From Roseateles sp. (GTDB lineage Bacteria > Pseudomonadota > Gammaproteobacteria > Burkholderiales > Burkholderiaceae), in NCBI GenBank assembly GCA_019232985.1, contig JAFAMW010000023.1, forward strand, positions 1 to 54,194: a DNA stretch of 54,194 bases, given 5' to 3'. Within the stretch, counting starts at the first letter, position 1, and each line of letters starts with the position of its first letter. Below are positions 7,651 to 13,306 of the stretch, piece after piece. The notes below the pieces were generated by a model that ran no database searches, had not been told where the DNA came from, and saw only the letters and a list, made by a program, of their open reading frames with translations. A program made the translations under genes and the position numbers.

Positions 7651-7726
7651 TGGCTCCTCGACCTGGGCTCGAACCAGGGACCTACGGATTAACAGTCCGG
7701 CGCTCTACCGACTGAGCTATCGAGGA
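7651..7726 (-). tRNA. tRNA-Asn (anticodon GTT), second copy in transcript
   Basis: A 76-nt cloverleaf. The acceptor stem is TCCTCGA/TCGAGGA, the D-arm GCTCAGTCGGTAGAGC, the anticodon loop CTGTTAA giving GTT (Asn), the T-arm CCTGG-TTCGAGC-CCAGG, the discriminator G, and CCA is encoded. It is identical to the copy at 7778-7853, 51 bp away. Confidence 0.97.
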
Positions 7727-7777: not shown

Positions 7778-7853
7778 TGGCTCCTCGACCTGGGCTCGAA
7801 CCAGGGACCTACGGATTAACAGTCCGGCGCTCTACCGACTGAGCTATCGAGGA
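7778..7853 (-). tRNA. tRNA-Asn (anticodon GTT), first copy in transcript
   Basis: A 76-nt cloverleaf identical to the copy at 7651-7726: the same acceptor stem, GTT anticodon in loop CTGTTAA, T-loop TTCGAGC and encoded CCA. The two genes are probably one transcript running from the TATAAT promoter at 7868-7897 to the hairpin at 7613-7646. Confidence 0.97.
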
Positions 7854-7867
7854 ACAGTGAGCCCACG

Positions 7868-7897
7868 ATTATAGGACAGATTCAGACCACTTCACAA
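7868..7897 (-). promoter_or_regulatory. Sigma70-type promoter for the tRNA-Asn pair
   Basis: On the minus strand a perfect TATAAT (-10, 7868-7873) is preceded by TTGTGA (-35-like, 7892-7897) with an 18-bp spacer, and lies about 14 bp upstream of the first tRNA. The -35 element overlaps the stop codon of the upstream TonB-receptor gene. Confidence 0.65.
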
Positions 7898-10033
7898 CTG
7901 CACCTCAAGACTCGCACGGAAAGTGCGCGGCGCGAGCGGGTAGAGGTAGACATGTGCGTACTGGTAGGGCGACTCGCGCCACGCGCGGCGGTTCGCGAGG
8001 TTGTCCACGCCGACGCGCCAGACGTACTGGGCGCCGGCGGTCTGCTGCGCGTAGCGCAGGCCCGCGTCGAGGCGGGTCCAGCCGGGCAGCATCAGGCTGT
8101 TGTCGGGCAGCACCGCGCGCGGGCCTTCGTAGACGAGGCCGCCCTGCGCCTGCAGGCCCGCCGCGACGTCCTCGCGCAGCTGCAGCTTGAGCGTGTTCGA
8201 CGGCACGTTGGTCGGCATCAGGCCGTCGAGGCGCGCGTCGGCGCTGCCTTCGCGGCGCGCGCGCAGGTGCATCGCGCTGGCGCTCATGCTGCCGCCCTGC
8301 CACTTGAAGTCGACGGCGGCCTCGAGGCCGCGGTGGCGCTCGCTGCCGTCGACCTTGGTCGTGCAGCTGCCGGTCGTGCCGTCGCAGGCGCCGACGTCGC
8401 GCGCGGCCGGCTGGCGGATGTCGAACGCGGCGAGCGACCAGTCGACGGTGTTGGTGCCCGACTTGACGCCGACCTCGGTCTGGCGGCTCTTCAGCGCGGG
8501 CAGGGCCTGGCCCGCGTTCGTGTACTGCGGCAGGTTCGGCGCGAACTGCGACTCGACGCCTTCGCCCCAGCTCGCGTAGAGCATCAGCGTGCGGCTCAGG
8601 CTGTAGCCGACGCCGGCCCAGGGCGTCGTGCACGACTGCGTGTAGGCGGTCGGCGCGCTGCCGTCGGTGCCGATCGTCGCGCGCGCGAGGCGCGTGTGGC
8701 GCAGACCCAGCCAGGCCTGCCATTGCGCGTCGATCGCGATCGCGTCGCGCACGAAGAACTCGGTGCTGCGTTCGTCGCGGTTGGTGTTCGCGGCGAGCGG
8801 CGCGGGGTCGGCCGGCGTGAAGACCTGGCCGTCGATATTGCCGGTGCCCACGTAGTTGTAGGCCTCGCCGTTGAAGCGCGCGGCGAGCGCCGTGCGCAGC
8901 ACGCCGGCCGAGACCTGGTGCGTGAGCGCGCCGGTCGCGACGCGGCCGTCGAGCGTCAGCTGCAGCGCCGTGCTGTTGCGGTGCTCGCCGTTGCTACGGA
9001 AGTCGTAGAGGTCGAAGTTGCCGTTCGGGCAGTAGCTCGAGCTCCAGTAGGTGCCGTCGCTCGCCGTGCAGCCGAACGGGAACGCGAGGCGGTCGTCGTT
9101 GCTCAGGCGCTGGACCATGCCGTGGGCCGTGACGCTCCAGTCGGCGTTCAGCTGCTGCCTGACGCGCAGGCTCGCGGTGCGGCCGTCGAAGACCGAGGGC
9201 AGGCTCCAGGGCTGGTCGTTGAGGTTGATGTTCGGGTCGATCTTGCGCGGGTCGGGCAGCGCGGTGCCGAGCAGGCTGAAGCCGGGCTGGTCGCGCTCGG
9301 CCTGGTGCCAGACCTCGCCCTCGAGCTGGACCAGCGTGGTGGGGCTCGCGCGCCAGTCGAGCGCGGCCGACAGCAGGCGCGAGTTGCCCTTGGCGTCGCG
9401 CAGCGCGGGGTCGAGCTGGGCCGCCTCGACGTTGACGCGCAGCGCGAAGCCGTTGCCGAGCTGGCGGCTCGCGTCGAGCGTGGTCTCGACCGTGCCCGAC
9501 TGGACGAAGCCGAGACCCAGCGTCGTGAAGTCCTGCACCGTCGGGCGCTTGACGACGAGGTCGACGAGGCCGCCCGGCGCGCTCGTGCCGGCCTGGATGC
9601 CGCTCGTGCCCTTGAGCAGCTCGACGCTCGCGACGTCGGCGAGCGGAAGCGCGGTCTCGGCGTTGATCGGCAGGCCGTCGCGCCGGTAGTTGAAGCGGTT
9701 GTCGAGCTGGAAGCCGCGCACGCTCAGGTAGCTCACGTAGCCGATCGCGTTGTAGGCGTCGCTCGTCGACGCGTCGAGCGAGGTCAGGCCCGAGAGCTGG
9801 GTCGTGCCGGTGTCCTTGAGCTGGTCGGCCGAGATCACGTCGGCCTGCAACGGCAGCTTTGCGACCGGGGTGTCGCCCCAGCCGCCGACCTCGACCGGCG
9901 TATTCGCGGCGTGGCCGGTGACGGACACCGTGGGCAGCGCGGTCTGGGCGTGGAGCGCGGTGGCGGGTAACAGCGCGGCTGCGGCGGCAGCGCACGCGGT
10001 CAGGCGGAGCGGGAACTTCTGGGTGGTTGCCAT
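7892..10033 (-). CDS. TonB-dependent receptor, siderophore-receptor type; candidate thiamine-compound receptor
   Basis: A 713-residue outer-membrane receptor. Residues 1-33 form a signal peptide ending ALHAQ, followed by a TonB-box-like TVSVTG. The plug domain (about 50-165) contains YLSVRGFQLDNRFNYRRDG and VELLKGTSGIQAGTSAPGG. The remainder is a beta-barrel with alternating aromatic segments. By family it resembles FhuE/FpvA-like siderophore receptors. Its leader carries what reads as a TPP riboswitch, which points instead to a ligand linked to thiamine. The frame is open up to 10198 through the riboswitch, but the start at 10033 is chosen because a proper signal peptide follows. No strong ribosome-binding site is visible before that ATG. 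Family assignment is firm; the ligand is inference. Confidence 0.9.
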   Translation of the reverse strand: MATTQKFPLRLTACAAAAAALLPATALHAQTALPTVSVTGHAANTPVEVGGWGDTPVAKLPLQADVISADQLKDTGTTQLSGLTSLDASTSDAYNAIGYVSYLSVRGFQLDNRFNYRRDGLPINAETALPLADVASVELLKGTSGIQAGTSAPGGLVDLVVKRPTVQDFTTLGLGFVQSGTVETTLDASRQLGNGFALRVNVEAAQLDPALRDAKGNSRLLSAALDWRASPTTLVQLEGEVWHQAERDQPGFSLLGTALPDPRKIDPNINLNDQPWSLPSVFDGRTASLRVRQQLNADWSVTAHGMVQRLSNDDRLAFPFGCTASDGTYWSSSYCPNGNFDLYDFRSNGEHRNSTALQLTLDGRVATGALTHQVSAGVLRTALAARFNGEAYNYVGTGNIDGQVFTPADPAPLAANTNRDERSTEFFVRDAIAIDAQWQAWLGLRHTRLARATIGTDGSAPTAYTQSCTTPWAGVGYSLSRTLMLYASWGEGVESQFAPNLPQYTNAGQALPALKSRQTEVGVKSGTNTVDWSLAAFDIRQPAARDVGACDGTTGSCTTKVDGSERHRGLEAAVDFKWQGGSMSASAMHLRARREGSADARLDGLMPTNVPSNTLKLQLREDVAAGLQAQGGLVYEGPRAVLPDNSLMLPGWTRLDAGLRYAQQTAGAQYVWRVGVDNLANRRAWRESPYQYAHVYLYPLAPRTFRASLEVQL

Positions 10034-10118
10034 CGTTGGATTGCTTGCGATGGCAGGTCGGCGAACGACATGGCCCGGGTGCGTCGGAGAGAAGAGGTGA
10101 CGGCCGCGGGCTCGATGC

Positions 10119-10250
10119 GTGCTTCCCTGCGCGAGGATTACCTCGAATCCCCGATTGGGGACTCTGAAGCGCATTGCTGCGCTTCTAGTCAGGTTCAAAG
10201 GGACTCTCTCAGTCGGCTTCGTCCGTGGACGAAGTCAACACCCCTAGCGA
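10119..10250 (-). ncRNA. TPP (thi-box) riboswitch upstream of TonB-dependent receptor
   Basis: On the minus strand the conserved blocks appear in order. GGGGTG is at 10239-10244, CTGAGA at 10207-10212 followed by GAGTCCC, and GAACCTGA at 10189-10196. A variable arm with two hairpins follows (GAAGCGCA/TGCGCTTC and CCCC/GGGG), then GGTAAT, CGCGCAGGGAAGC ending at 10121. GCT (10246-10248) can pair with AGC (10121-10123) as a short P1. This order matches the TPP aptamer, in which the helix with CTGAGA reads the pyrimidine and the GGTAAT/GCGCAGGGA part reads the pyrophosphate. The receptor ATG is about 85 nt downstream. Expected effect: repression of the receptor gene when TPP is plentiful. Confidence 0.88.
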
Positions 10251-10252
10251 AT

Positions 10253-10274
10253 GCGCCACGTCGGAACGTGGCGC
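10253..10274. other. Perfect hairpin just 5' of the riboswitch
   Basis: GCGCCACGT (10253-10261) and ACGTGGCGC (10266-10274) form a 9-bp stem with a 4-nt loop. On the minus strand it immediately precedes the TPP aptamer and a TAGAAT box at 10282-10287 lies upstream of it. It could be the 5' cap structure of the riboswitch transcript or a protein-binding site. Confidence 0.5.
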
Positions 10275-10289
10275 GGGCCGGATTCTAGC

Positions 10290-10326: not shown

Positions 10327-11322
10327 TCAGTGGCCGCTGGCCGACAGGCTGCCGTCGGCCGACGCGCCGTTGCTGCGGTTCGCGCTCGCGTTGCCGGTCG
10401 CGCTTGCGTTCGCGCTCGGGCTGCCGCCATGCGAGGCCTTGTGCGTCGTCGACGACGACGCGGTGCTGCTGCCGTTCGAAGCCGTCGAGCCGGTGCCCGA
10501 CGCGCCGGTCGTCGCCTTGCTGGTCGAGCCCGAGGTGCTGTGCGAGTGCGTGTTGCCCGCCTTGCCGCTCGCCGAGCCCGTCGTCGTGCCGCCGGCCGAG
10601 CTGCCGCTCGCGCTGCCGCCGGTCATGCCGCCGACGGCGCCGCTCGTCTTGCCGACGCTGCCCGTGGCGCTGCCGGCGCCGTTGCCGGAGACCGAGCCGC
10701 CGACGCTCGCGAGCGGGTTCTGGCCCGTGACGTGACCGGCCGCGGCCTGCAGCTCGCTCGCGCCGTTCGCGGCCGCGTTCTTCACGTTGGCGGCCGCGGT
10801 GCCAGCGCCGCTCTGCGCGCTCGCGACCGTGCTGCCGGCCGCGGCGCCCAGCGCGCCGGCCTCGGTCTGCGCGACCTGCTTGGTGGTACCGACTTCCGAT
10901 TGCGCGGCCTGCTTGGTCGCGGCGACTTCGCCCTGCGCGGCCGCTTGGGTCGCGCCGGCCTCGGTCTGCAGCGCCTGCTTGGCCGTCGCGGCCTGGGCGG
11001 TCGCGCCGTTCTTGACGTCGGCGACCTTGCCCGCGACGGCGGTCTTCGTGTCGCCGACCTTGTTGCCGGCCTTGTCGACCAGGCCGCCCGCGTCGGGCGC
11101 CTGCGGCAGGTTCGGGCGGGTCAGCTGGCCGTTGAGGTTGCCGCTGAGATTGCCGGCGAGGCTGCCGTTGCCGCTCAGCCCGCGGCCGAAGCCGCCGCCG
11201 AGGCCGCCCATGCCGCCGCCGCCGAGCAGGCCCGCATGGGCGGGCGCGGCCGCGAGGCTCAGGGCGCCGGCGAGCGCGAGGGCCAGCGTGGGCAGGGGGC
11301 GGGAGTGAGTGCGCTTGTTCAT
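10327..11322 (-). CDS. Secreted Gly/Ala/Ser-rich protein with LEA-like 11-residue repeats
   Basis: A 331-residue protein; ATG at 11322 preceded by AGGAG. Residues 1-30 are a signal peptide (ending AAAPAHA), so the mature protein begins GLLGGGG. Residues 31-60 are Gly-rich. Residues 113-156 consist of four 11-residue units (TAKQALQTEAG, ATQAAAQGEVA, ATKQAAQSEVG, TTKQVAQTEAG) with weaker units following to about 200, a periodicity like group-3 LEA proteins or long right-handed coiled coils. Residues about 205-331 are Ser/Gly/Thr/Ala-rich and probably disordered. No known enzyme or adhesin domain is visible. It lies 121 bp downstream of the subtilase on the same strand. Function unknown; a surface or periplasmic structural or stress-protective role is a guess. 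Confidence 0.8.
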   Translation of the reverse strand: MNKRTHSRPLPTLALALAGALSLAAAPAHAGLLGGGGMGGLGGGFGRGLSGNGSLAGNLSGNLNGQLTRPNLPQAPDAGGLVDKAGNKVGDTKTAVAGKVADVKNGATAQAATAKQALQTEAGATQAAAQGEVAATKQAAQSEVGTTKQVAQTEAGALGAAAGSTVASAQSGAGTAAANVKNAAANGASELQAAAGHVTGQNPLASVGGSVSGNGAGSATGSVGKTSGAVGGMTGGSASGSSAGGTTTGSASGKAGNTHSHSTSGSTSKATTGASGTGSTASNGSSTASSSTTHKASHGGSPSANASATGNASANRSNGASADGSLSASGH

Positions 11323-11443
11323 GATGAGGATCTCCTGTGGCTTGGGCGTCGGCCTGTCCGGCGCCTGCATCCTCAAGAACGCACCGTGCGAAGCACTTCT
11401 TCCACGCGAGTTGCAACGAGTTGTTCGTTGCCGTGCCGGCCGC

Positions 11444-12736
11444 TCAGGGTCGCCGCGTGCGCAGCGCCGCGCCGACGAGGCCCCAGCCGTAGACGTCGTC
11501 GCGGCCCGGCGCGCCGAGGTCGACGGCGCTTGCGCGCAGGCGCTCGAGCGCGGCCGCGTTGCTGCCGGCGTCGGCGACCGCGCGTGCGAGCAGGCCCGCG
11601 ACGAGCGGCGCCGCGAACGAGGTGCCGCGCAGCGCCGCATAGCCGCCGTCGGCCGACGCGCCCCAGAGCTCGCTGCCCGGCGCCGCGAACGCCACCTGCG
11701 GGCCGCGGCCGGCCTCGGGTAGCACGCGCTCGTGCGCGTCGACGCCGGTCACGCCGACCACGCCGGGCCAGGCGGCCGGGTACAGCGGCGGCGCGGCGGG
11801 GCCGTCGTTGCCGACCGCCGCGACGATCAGCATGCCGCGCGCCTGCGCGGCCGAGACCGCACGCTGCAGCAGCAGGTTCGGCGGGCCGACCAGGCTCATG
11901 TTGACGACGCCGACATGCTCGCGCGCGAGCCAGGCGAGGCCCTGCGCGACGCGCTGCACCGAGCCGCCGTCGGGCGCGTCGCAATAGGCGTCAGCCGCGA
12001 ACAGCTGCGCGCCCGGCAGCACGCCCGCGAAGCGGCCCTGGCGGCCGACGAGCAGCGAGGCGACGGCCGTGCCATGCGCGGCCGGGTGCCTGGCGCCGTC
12101 GGCGCAGGCCGCGCGCCGGATGTCGGTCTGGGCCAGCGCGTCGTGCGCGGCGACGCCGGTGTCGACGAGACCGACGCGCAGCGCCGGTGCGGCGCCCGCC
12201 GCGGGCGCCGCCGAGGTCGCGGCGGCTGCCGCGGGTGCCGTTGCCGCGGCTCCCGCCAGCGCGCCGCCCGGCAGATACACATGCTCGTAGTCGTACTCGC
12301 CAGCCGGGTCGAGCGCGCGCAGCTGCGCGAGCAGTTTCGTGTCGGCGCGCAGGCGCAGCCAGTGCAGGTCGAGGCCGTCGAGCGCCTGGTCCTCGATCAG
12401 CGCGACGCCGGGCAGCGCGAGCACGCGCGCGCGCGCCGCGTCGTCCGAGGGCAGGGCGAGCAGCTCGGCGCGCACGATCAGCTGGCCGGCCGGGTCGCGC
12501 GCGAGTTCGTGCGGGTGGCGCTCGATCAGCGCGTCGCCGAGTGCGTGCAGGTCGAGCGGGCTCGCGAGCGCGTCGACGCTGTCGCGCAGGCGCTGGGCGT
12601 CCTGGCGCAGCGGGTCGGTCAGGCGCTGCGGCAGCTGGACCGGCAGCGAGGGCAGGCCGCCGCCGAGCAGCCCGGCGCGGGCCGGCGCGGTGAGCCCTAG
12701 CAGGACGGCGGCAAGAACGGCGATCAGCGTTTTCAT
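11444..12736 (-). CDS. Secreted S8 family serine peptidase (subtilase)
   Basis: A 430-residue protein; ATG at 12736. Residues 1-21 are a signal peptide (MKTLIAVLAAVLLGLTAPARA), giving a mature start GLLGGG as in the neighbouring repeat protein. Residues about 25-165 are a poorly recognisable N-terminal part that may act as a propeptide, then an Ala-rich linker. The catalytic domain has Asp in VGLVDTGV, His in HPAAHGTAVASL and Ser in RGTSFAAPLVAG, so the S8 triad is intact. It is divergent from an ECF sigma factor with only 63 bp between ATGs, and is followed by the 11-residue-repeat protein. Likely exported to periplasm or surface; substrate unknown. Confidence 0.88.
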   Translation of the reverse strand: MKTLIAVLAAVLLGLTAPARAGLLGGGLPSLPVQLPQRLTDPLRQDAQRLRDSVDALASPLDLHALGDALIERHPHELARDPAGQLIVRAELLALPSDDAARARVLALPGVALIEDQALDGLDLHWLRLRADTKLLAQLRALDPAGEYDYEHVYLPGGALAGAAATAPAAAAATSAAPAAGAAPALRVGLVDTGVAAHDALAQTDIRRAACADGARHPAAHGTAVASLLVGRQGRFAGVLPGAQLFAADAYCDAPDGGSVQRVAQGLAWLAREHVGVVNMSLVGPPNLLLQRAVSAAQARGMLIVAAVGNDGPAAPPLYPAAWPGVVGVTGVDAHERVLPEAGRGPQVAFAAPGSELWGASADGGYAALRGTSFAAPLVAGLLARAVADAGSNAAALERLRASAVDLGAPGRDDVYGWGLVGAALRTRRP

Positions 12737-12799
12737 GAAAGGTAGAACGACGCGGGCATGGAAGAAAATCCGCCGCGCCAACGTTATCCGAATCAAGAC

Positions 12800-13306
12800 A
12801 TGAGTGTGGACGAGCTTCGCCAGGGTCTGGCCGCGCTATTGCCGCGCCTGCGCCGCTTTGCGCGCACGCTGGCCTGGCGCCGCGAGGACGCCGACGATCT
12901 CGTGCAGGTCGCGCTCGAACGCGCGCTGCGCGCCGCCGATCAATGGCAGCCGGGCACGCGCCTCGACGCGTGGCTGTTCCGCATCATGAAGAACGCATGG
13001 ATCGACGAGCTGCGCGCGCGCGGCCGCCGCAGCGAGGTGATCGTGGACAACGTGGACAGCGAGGCACTCGAGGAAAAGGCCGGCACGGCCGAGACCGGCG
13101 GCGTGATCACGCGCCTTGCCGTGCAGGCGGCGATGCAGCGCCTGCCCGAGGAGCAGCGCGTCGCCGTGAGCCTCGTGCTCGTCGAGGGCCTCGCCTACAA
13201 GGAGGCGGCCGAGCTGCTCGAGATCCCGGTCGGCACCCTGACGAGCCGCCTTGCGCGCGGCCGCGAGGCCCTGCAGGCCCTGCTCGTGGACGGAGAGGTG
13301 CAGTAA
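12800..13306 (+). CDS. ECF-type RNA polymerase sigma factor
   Basis: A 168-residue sigma-70 family protein with only regions 2 and 4. Region 2 is at about residues 15-80 (ARTLAWRREDADDLVQVALERAL, then WLFRIMKNAWIDELR). Region 4 is at about 105-160 (MQRLPEEQRVAVSLVLVEGL, then YKEAAELLEIPVGTLTSRLARGREAL). The start MSVDELRQGL at 12800 fits relatives; an in-frame ATG at 12758 would add 14 residues. It overlaps by one base (TAATG) with the anti-sigma gene, giving coupled synthesis. It is divergent from the subtilase gene, which together with the repeat-protein gene is its most likely local target (inference). Confidence 0.93.
   Translation: MSVDELRQGLAALLPRLRRFARTLAWRREDADDLVQVALERALRAADQWQPGTRLDAWLFRIMKNAWIDELRARGRRSEVIVDNVDSEALEEKAGTAETGGVITRLAVQAAMQRLPEEQRVAVSLVLVEGLAYKEAAELLEIPVGTLTSRLARGREALQALLVDGEVQ

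Follow-up and report, generated by a model that had tools for sequence, protein, structure and literature searches.

The stretch of DNA considered here, called the window below, is the 54,194-nt contig JAFAMW010000023.1 of Roseateles sp. (assembly GCA_019232985.1). On its minus strand, motifs of a thiamine pyrophosphate (TPP) aptamer lie upstream of a gene for a TonB-dependent receptor whose own sequence would be called a siderophore receptor. Two questions follow: is this aptamer, which scores under the Rfam cut-off, part of a TPP riboswitch, and what does the receptor carry? We consider it very probable that four statements hold jointly: the element is a genuine TPP riboswitch, it tolerates an insert in its aptamer, it works as a translational OFF switch, and the receptor imports thiamine, a thiamine phosphate or a precursor. 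The elements concerned, all on the minus strand, are the following.

10255-10107, minus strand: TPP riboswitch aptamer (RF00059, full length, under the gathering score), from the covariance model and orthologue leaders
10189-10145, minus strand: 45-nt two-hairpin insert on the 5′ side of J4/5, from spacing and folding (z −7.14)
10166-10185, minus strand: insert hairpin H1, 8 bp, from folding; single copy in the window
10145-10164, minus strand: insert hairpin H2, 8 bp, from folding
10132-10145, minus strand: P5 and L5, CGAGG-TAAT-CCTCG, directly after H2, read from the sequence; C10145 pairs in H2 or in P5
10048-10057, minus strand: CCTGCCATCG, within which TGCCATCG pairs with the start-codon region and CCTGC may alternatively pair with GCAGG of P4
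10028-10035, minus strand: CGATGGCA, 3′ arm of the start-codon hairpin, holding the ATG at 10033-10031, from leader comparison and folding
10033-7892, minus strand: TonB-dependent receptor of 713 aa, its predicted substrate being thiamine or a thiamine-related compound (PF00593, PF07715, TIGR01783, TPP-led orthologues)

A TPP aptamer under the gathering score

The conserved blocks of the aptamer were all located upstream of the receptor gene, in the order given by a first-pass annotation of this DNA: GGGGTG (10244-10239), CTGAGA (10212-10207), GAACCTGA (10196-10189), GGTAAT (10142-10137) and CGCGCAGGGAAGC (10133-10121). The canonical spacing that this annotation had also claimed did not hold, as 58 nt separate GAACCTG from CGCAGGGA in the window, against 15-17 nt in most relatives. 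When 551 bases were compared with all 4227 Rfam families, the RF00059 alignment spanned model positions 1-105, with a score of 30.4 bits and an E-value of 4.7e-4. This full-length alignment includes the conserved core boxes, meeting CTGAGA, GAACCTGA and CGCAGGGAAG, but many nucleotides between P4 and P5 stay unmatched; P3 is long compared with RF00059. The scan that had been proposed as a check is therefore significant by E-value, but its score lies under the curated gathering score (54.3 bits), and a default Rfam scan of the whole window returned two tRNAs only.

The low score is explained by the 45-nt insert on the 5′ side of J4/5. Receptor aptamers of canonical form score 52.8-65.9 bits with RF00059, versus 29.1-41.6 bits for those bearing an insert, which fits this cause, and the receptor aptamers of relatives G145, G150, G008, G117, G175 and others stand above the cut-off. 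We assigned the element to the TPP riboswitches, as a variant with a score under the cut-off, because of these relatives and of the core motifs. As judged from its sequence, it is a genuine TPP riboswitch, predicted to bind TPP. An Rfam scan at the gathering threshold alone misses this aptamer and would have thrown out a true finding; regulon surveys run at default thresholds are incomplete for the same reason.

Conservation upstream of the receptor was analysed in a sample of 200 genomes from the family to which G001, a Burkholderiales metagenome-assembled genome, belongs. The receptor orthologues, 38-64% identical to the window receptor, form a well separated group (full-length members down to 459 bits, next full-length protein at most 220 bits). 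The set comprised 104 loci from 104 genomes, after L002 (without upstream DNA), L003 and L017 (both from the genome of L001) were dropped; orthologue fragments in G007 and G057, and a second copy in G081, lie outside it. In the comparison of leaders that the first-pass annotation had suggested, a TPP aptamer was found directly upstream of the receptor gene in 101 of the 104 loci (99 by motif, G199 and G114 by the covariance model). Counted by rows, the motif search succeeded in 101 of 106, one of these rows being the window and another L017, which repeats the genome of L001. The aptamer is thus kept before the same gene across species, and in some relatives it exceeds the cut-off. As to the three other loci, the upstream DNA of G020 is limited to 222 nt, where the motif's 3′ part could be read in setting the tree states below; in G123 a TPP match lies on the same strand at a distance of about 5.4 kb upstream; and the sole TPP match of G182 is near thiC.

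A structured insert in J4/5

The insert of the window folds into hairpins H1 and H2, and no second copy of H1 was found elsewhere in the window. Neither this insert nor the start-codon hairpin described below is mentioned in the first-pass annotation. All 37 inserts known to us from the family (window included, see below) fold into one or two hairpins, with a mean z of −4.1; folding was significant (p<0.05, against dinucleotide shuffles) in 34 of the 37, the remaining three having p values of 0.05-0.063. These are not 37 independent cases, since some inserts are near-copies of each other, those of L180 and L181 being identical, likewise those of L020 and L202. Insert sequences mostly differ between loci. 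Two hairpins were found in 21 of the 26 receptor inserts (window included), and one hairpin in 7 of the 8 inserts preceding a cytX-like gene. The window insert is identical at 37 of 45 positions to the insert before a cytX-like gene (L185), and at 36 of 45 positions to that before a Thiamine_BP gene (L179).

All 17 insert-bearing loci of the receptor set have TCCTCG, the 3′ strand of P5, although the search pattern does not demand it; CTGAGA, GAACCTG and AGGGA are demanded by the pattern, so that their presence is partly by construction. In solved structures, J4/5 and P4/P5 hold the pyrophosphate end of TPP. In the variant, P4, H1, H2 and P5 would meet in a four-way junction, and the 3′ strand of J4/5 (P5-CG-CAGG) would be as in ordinary TPP aptamers. 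Most likely, to judge from these sequences, the insert is a tolerated structural plug-in and TPP binding is kept. An aptamer site that has repeatedly gained or lost hairpins is a natural test of what is tolerated near a ligand pocket.

Distribution of the insert

At the receptor loci, the distance from GAACCTG to the end motif was 40-61 nt in 17 of 104, and 15-17 nt, usually ATTGAGGTAATCCTCG, in the remaining readable ones. A pattern describing the insert was then applied to 399 genomes of the family. It gave 37 matches in 37 genomes, and none in the reversed control; the match in G699, an artefact made by a second GAACCTG, was dropped. The 36 remaining inserts precede the receptor gene (25 cases), a gene for a CytX-like permease (8), a Thiamine_BP gene, coding for a PF01910 thiamine-binding protein (1), and a thiD/thiO region without cytX (2). 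Five of the eight cytX-like genes, and the thiD and thiO genes of L206 and L207, were assigned by eye, the thiO-like protein of L206 being also scanned; for the three CytX-like proteins scanned, the best match was TIGR02358, under its cut-off. Both L206 and L207 have the insert-type riboswitch, then a thiD-like open reading frame (ORF) on the opposite strand, then a thiO-like gene; L205, unlike these two, has a cytX-like gene in between.

On a FastTree tree of the receptor (113 rows: 26 with the insert, 83 without, and L049, L054, L083 and L102 unscored, L083 and L102 having an aptamer by the covariance model), the insert state changes at least 14 times, and 11 of these changes are forced by well-supported branches. 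The tree cannot separate gains from losses. The state is more clustered than with shuffled labels (0 of 500 shuffles as low). L104 and L107 have an identical P3, and only L107 bears an insert.

Twelve thiC aptamers from insert-bearing genomes were examined; two were not where they were read, and the other ten have ordinary P4/P5 regions. A thiC-type insert pattern gave one match (G013) in 200 genomes, which is below the reversed control and at chance level. Samples of 399 genomes of the order (some of them family members) and 274 of the class showed no clear J4/5 insert outside the family, with patterns that demand the boxes of this consensus. A lax order-wide pattern, which matched in 95 of the 399, was rejected as mostly chance, as the reversed control also matches; among the matches listed, a P5 element was seen by eye after the insert only in G001, G129 and G191. 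The stricter class-wide pattern matched in 3 of the 274 genomes (G129, G001 and G1057). The last of these (L213, C122:12816-12879) was not retained as a J4/5 insert: to the eye its extension is of another kind, the P5/L5 region being enlarged. Plasmids were also searched at the DNA level, with no match. As far as our literature searches reach, the hairpin inserts that 36 of 399 genomes of the family have at this single, exact position of the aptamer are new.

A hairpin over the start codon

The ORF that holds the receptor codes for 768 aa from a TTG. The start is most likely the ATG at 10033, because it lies inside a conserved hairpin and is followed by a signal-peptide-like stretch, as judged by eye. 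The arms of this hairpin are TGCCATCG (10055-10048) and CGATGGCA (10035-10028). A start-codon stem of at least 6 contiguous bp was found in 70 of 100 leaders (two of which look spurious), compared to 225 of 3500 mononucleotide shuffles, and CCTG adjoins the stem in 68 leaders. A looser form of the motif, scored without a control, was present in 87 of the 100. Among these 87, two-sided changes were observed, pair 3 turning from C-G to T-A in two leaders and pair 6 from T-A to C-G in one. L008 has a TPP aptamer and no strict match to the hairpin; 30 of the 100 leaders fail in this way, some of them by small shifts of the stem.

The segment GACCTGC is similar to AACCTGA, the 5′ strand of P4, and is able to pair with GCAGG, the 3′ strand of the same helix; this suggests strand exchange. 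Computed energies of the ligand-free RNA were −104.8 kcal/mol for the exchange pairing and −98.7 kcal/mol when the aptamer core was imposed. A search for intrinsic terminators between 9980 and 10420 found none. Given the recurrent start-codon hairpin and the lack of such a terminator, control is probably translational, with TPP as the OFF signal. With TPP bound, P4 would form and the segment GACCTGCCATCG would be free to pair with CGATGGCA, so that the start codon is buried. When TPP is low, CCTGC would pair with GCAGG in the 3′ strand of P4, the start-codon hairpin would be shortened and the receptor would be made; it would then carry thiamine, a thiamine phosphate or a precursor over the outer membrane. 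The conserved hairpin makes this switching model directly testable.

Substrate of the receptor

Both the plug domain (PF07715) and the beta-barrel (PF00593) were found above their cut-offs, which makes the protein a TonB-dependent receptor. Its closest named relatives are proteins of Pelomonas, Roseateles and Paucibacter. The score with TIGR01783, the model for TonB-dependent siderophore receptors, was 256.8 bits for a cut-off of 223.5, so that the label “siderophore” would be given, as the first-pass annotation had foreseen. This is a subfamily model, silent on the substrate: as it also covers L104, which is TPP-led and 39% identical, it does not tell what is transported.

Sites for Fur were sought in the 120 nt before the aptamer, by scoring against a 19-base Fur consensus. 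None was found beyond chance: the best match in the window was 7/19, none of the 100 leaders reached 13 (0.8% of shuffles do), and the mean match was 8.85 in leaders versus 8.79 in shuffles. We also searched with RF00059 nine receptor genomes without thiC (G001, G035, G038, G162, G185, G022, G114, G081 and G190). In eight of them, the only TPP match with E<1 is the one at the receptor gene; G022 has another, at the Thiamine_BP gene. The clearest case is G081, where a 2.59-Mb contig of a 2.6-Mb genome has a single TPP match and two tandem receptors. Others of these genomes may be incomplete. The two receptor genes of G081 stand behind one TPP riboswitch (C1:1565567-1569871, the first copy being that of L104), and no thiC match was found there.

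These results support the proposal of the first-pass annotation that the protein takes up thiamine or a precursor and that its siderophore label is wrong. The sequence data are best read as uptake of thiamine or a related compound, because TPP control is conserved, leaders show no excess of Fur-like sites, the TPP matches of the thiC-less genomes searched lie, with one addition in G022, at the receptor, and Thiamine_BP and CytX-like genes stand under the same insert-bearing form of riboswitch; the siderophore name is then probably wrong. Thiamine, thiamine phosphates and hydroxymethylpyrimidine (HMP) are indistinguishable as substrates with the present data. The data indicate a group of siderophore-scoring receptors under vitamin B1 control across a bacterial family, and probably importing B1, which alters how vitamin dependence is read from genomes.

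Alternative explanations

Several observations weigh against the interpretation given above. The aptamer, as said, scores under the Rfam cut-off, and among proteins of solved structure FemA and BauA, both siderophore receptors, come nearest in sequence. Nor is the receptor enriched in genomes lacking thiC, which was absent from 16 of 50 genomes with an orthologue and 7 of 20 without, among 70 selected from the 200. In the loose alignment of the 87 leaders, 19 have a non-standard outer pair 1 in the hairpin and 25 a non-standard pair 7. The unconstrained energy minimum (−106.3 kcal/mol) is a third structure, corresponding to neither of the modelled states; moreover, the start-codon hairpin has a probability of 0.76-0.98 per pair in the ligand-free ensemble, and the exchange structure retains a 5-bp remnant of it. 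With this ensemble, this remnant and this third minimum, the switch model is unproven, and its direction is something we infer.

The receptor could truly be an iron-siderophore receptor, as TIGR01783 and its resemblance to FemA and BauA would have it, with an aptamer that is a relic or serves another transcript. We regard this as highly improbable: the adjacent aptamer is kept in nearly all loci, mostly together with a hairpin that covers the start codon of the receptor itself, leaders have no Fur-like excess, and TIGR01783 embraces the TPP-led L104 as well. Switching might also proceed by Rho-dependent termination or mRNA decay, for which the leader of about 60 nt between aptamer and hairpin could serve, and the lack of an intrinsic terminator is compatible with it. 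A start-codon hairpin so far above its shuffled control, with some two-sided changes, makes such a route improbable. Another matter is whether the insert, taken above as tolerated, is a functional module that slows completion of the aptamer while it is transcribed or shifts its affinity or ligand, so that uptake genes switch at another TPP level than thiC. Its occurrence at one exact site, always as hairpins, before receptor, cytX-like, Thiamine_BP and thiO-region genes speaks for this, as do the ordinary thiC aptamers of insert-bearing genomes, the chance-level result of the thiC-type pattern, and the closeness of the window insert to those before cytX-like (L185) and Thiamine_BP (L179) genes of other genomes. 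Yet inserts are very diverse in sequence and in their number of hairpins, and the receptor tree shows repeated changes of state, L104 and L107 differing despite their identical P3; this variety and these repeated changes look like tolerance. In addition, 2 of the 36 inserts precede a biosynthesis region, the pattern was tuned to GAACCTG..CGCAGGGA, and gene classes were unequally sampled. A functional module thus appears rather unlikely to us. Its fuller version, a functional TPP-riboswitch subtype lying below the cut-off, mainly before uptake genes of one Burkholderiales family, in which the four-way junction, adjoining the helix that senses the pyrophosphate, retunes rate, affinity or ligand, we hold to be unlikely as well. 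Were it true, uptake and synthesis would switch at different TPP levels, and copies of the subtype would be missed at default thresholds.

Relation to known systems

TPP control of a TonB receptor is already published, Variovorax included. In the portions available to us of the respective papers, OMthi of Bacteroides thetaiotaomicron (BT2390) is a receptor whose deletion together with biosynthesis raises the thiamine need (PMC5613172), and omr1 is used as a marker for a putative B1 transporter (PMC10881298, PMC12442306). The window receptor shares with Omr1/OMthi, as these are described there, the TPP riboswitch upstream of a TonB-dependent receptor; OMthi comes from another phylum, and the window protein falls under the siderophore-receptor model. 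A TPP operon of Variovorax is reported, in the accessible part of PMC10409787, to contain, besides a thiamine permease, a TonB-receptor-like gene whose product is a predicted active transporter of thiamine; that receptor sits in a biosynthetic operon, whereas two tRNA genes follow the one in the window. FemA and BauA are weak matches (E about 1e-25 to 1e-23), although the best among solved structures, and no Fur-like site was seen upstream of the window receptor. Burkholderia and Ralstonia are named by Sun et al. 2013 (PMC3766115, excerpt) among lineages without TPP-regulated transporters. The statement of the first-pass annotation that TPP-regulated receptors occur mainly in Bacteroidetes is too narrow, given the present Burkholderiales family.

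As to the aptamer, the window shares with RF00059 the block order and the full-length alignment, and differs by the J4/5 insert, the long P3 and the low score. In the consulted passages of Barrick and Breaker 2007 (PMC2258182), an optional P3a is described for TPP riboswitches, and for riboswitches generally stem-loop variable insertions and low-scoring true matches with unusually placed insertions; the site of the present insert is not named in them. A J4/5 insert in TPP aptamers was found described nowhere in the literature searched (passages of PMC2258182 and PMC12632268 included), mostly outside subscription journals and in part as excerpts. As far as these searches reach, the architecture is an undescribed variant.

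Flanking sequences

Other features around the receptor gene are listed here.

10282-10287, minus strand: TAGAAT, a −10-like box about 37 nt upstream of GGGGTG, read from the sequence
10253-10274, minus strand: short hairpin (GCGCCACG..CGTGGCGC) just 5′ of the aptamer, partial ncS54 match
10327-11640, minus strand: low-complexity Gly/Ser/Ala-rich ORF directly upstream of the aptamer, no Pfam match
7654-7726 and 7781-7853, minus strand: pair of tRNA-Asn genes that score alike with Rfam; the anticodon, GTT, was read from the sequence

A loose pattern, run without a control, found hexamers like the −10 box in the 75 nt that precede the aptamer for 88 of 100 leaders; a strict sigma-70 scan found no promoter for the window leader. 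The limits of the short hairpin come from a sub-threshold, partial match (E 0.36) to RF02871 ncS54, a Burkholderia small RNA family, and hairpins of different sequence seem, by eye, to be present at the same place in several relatives. The 20 ORFs of the window scanned with Pfam included no thiamine gene. Clustering of neighbouring ORFs was left out because shadow ORFs of GC-rich DNA were mixed in, and so were the ARAGORN tRNA counts, as ARAGORN missed a tRNA of L001 that Rfam sees. The Gly/Ser/Ala-rich ORF adjoins a subtilase (11444-12796) and a sigma-70-family factor (12758-13306). The tRNA pair lies directly downstream of the receptor gene, and a tRNA-Asn also follows the receptor in several relatives.

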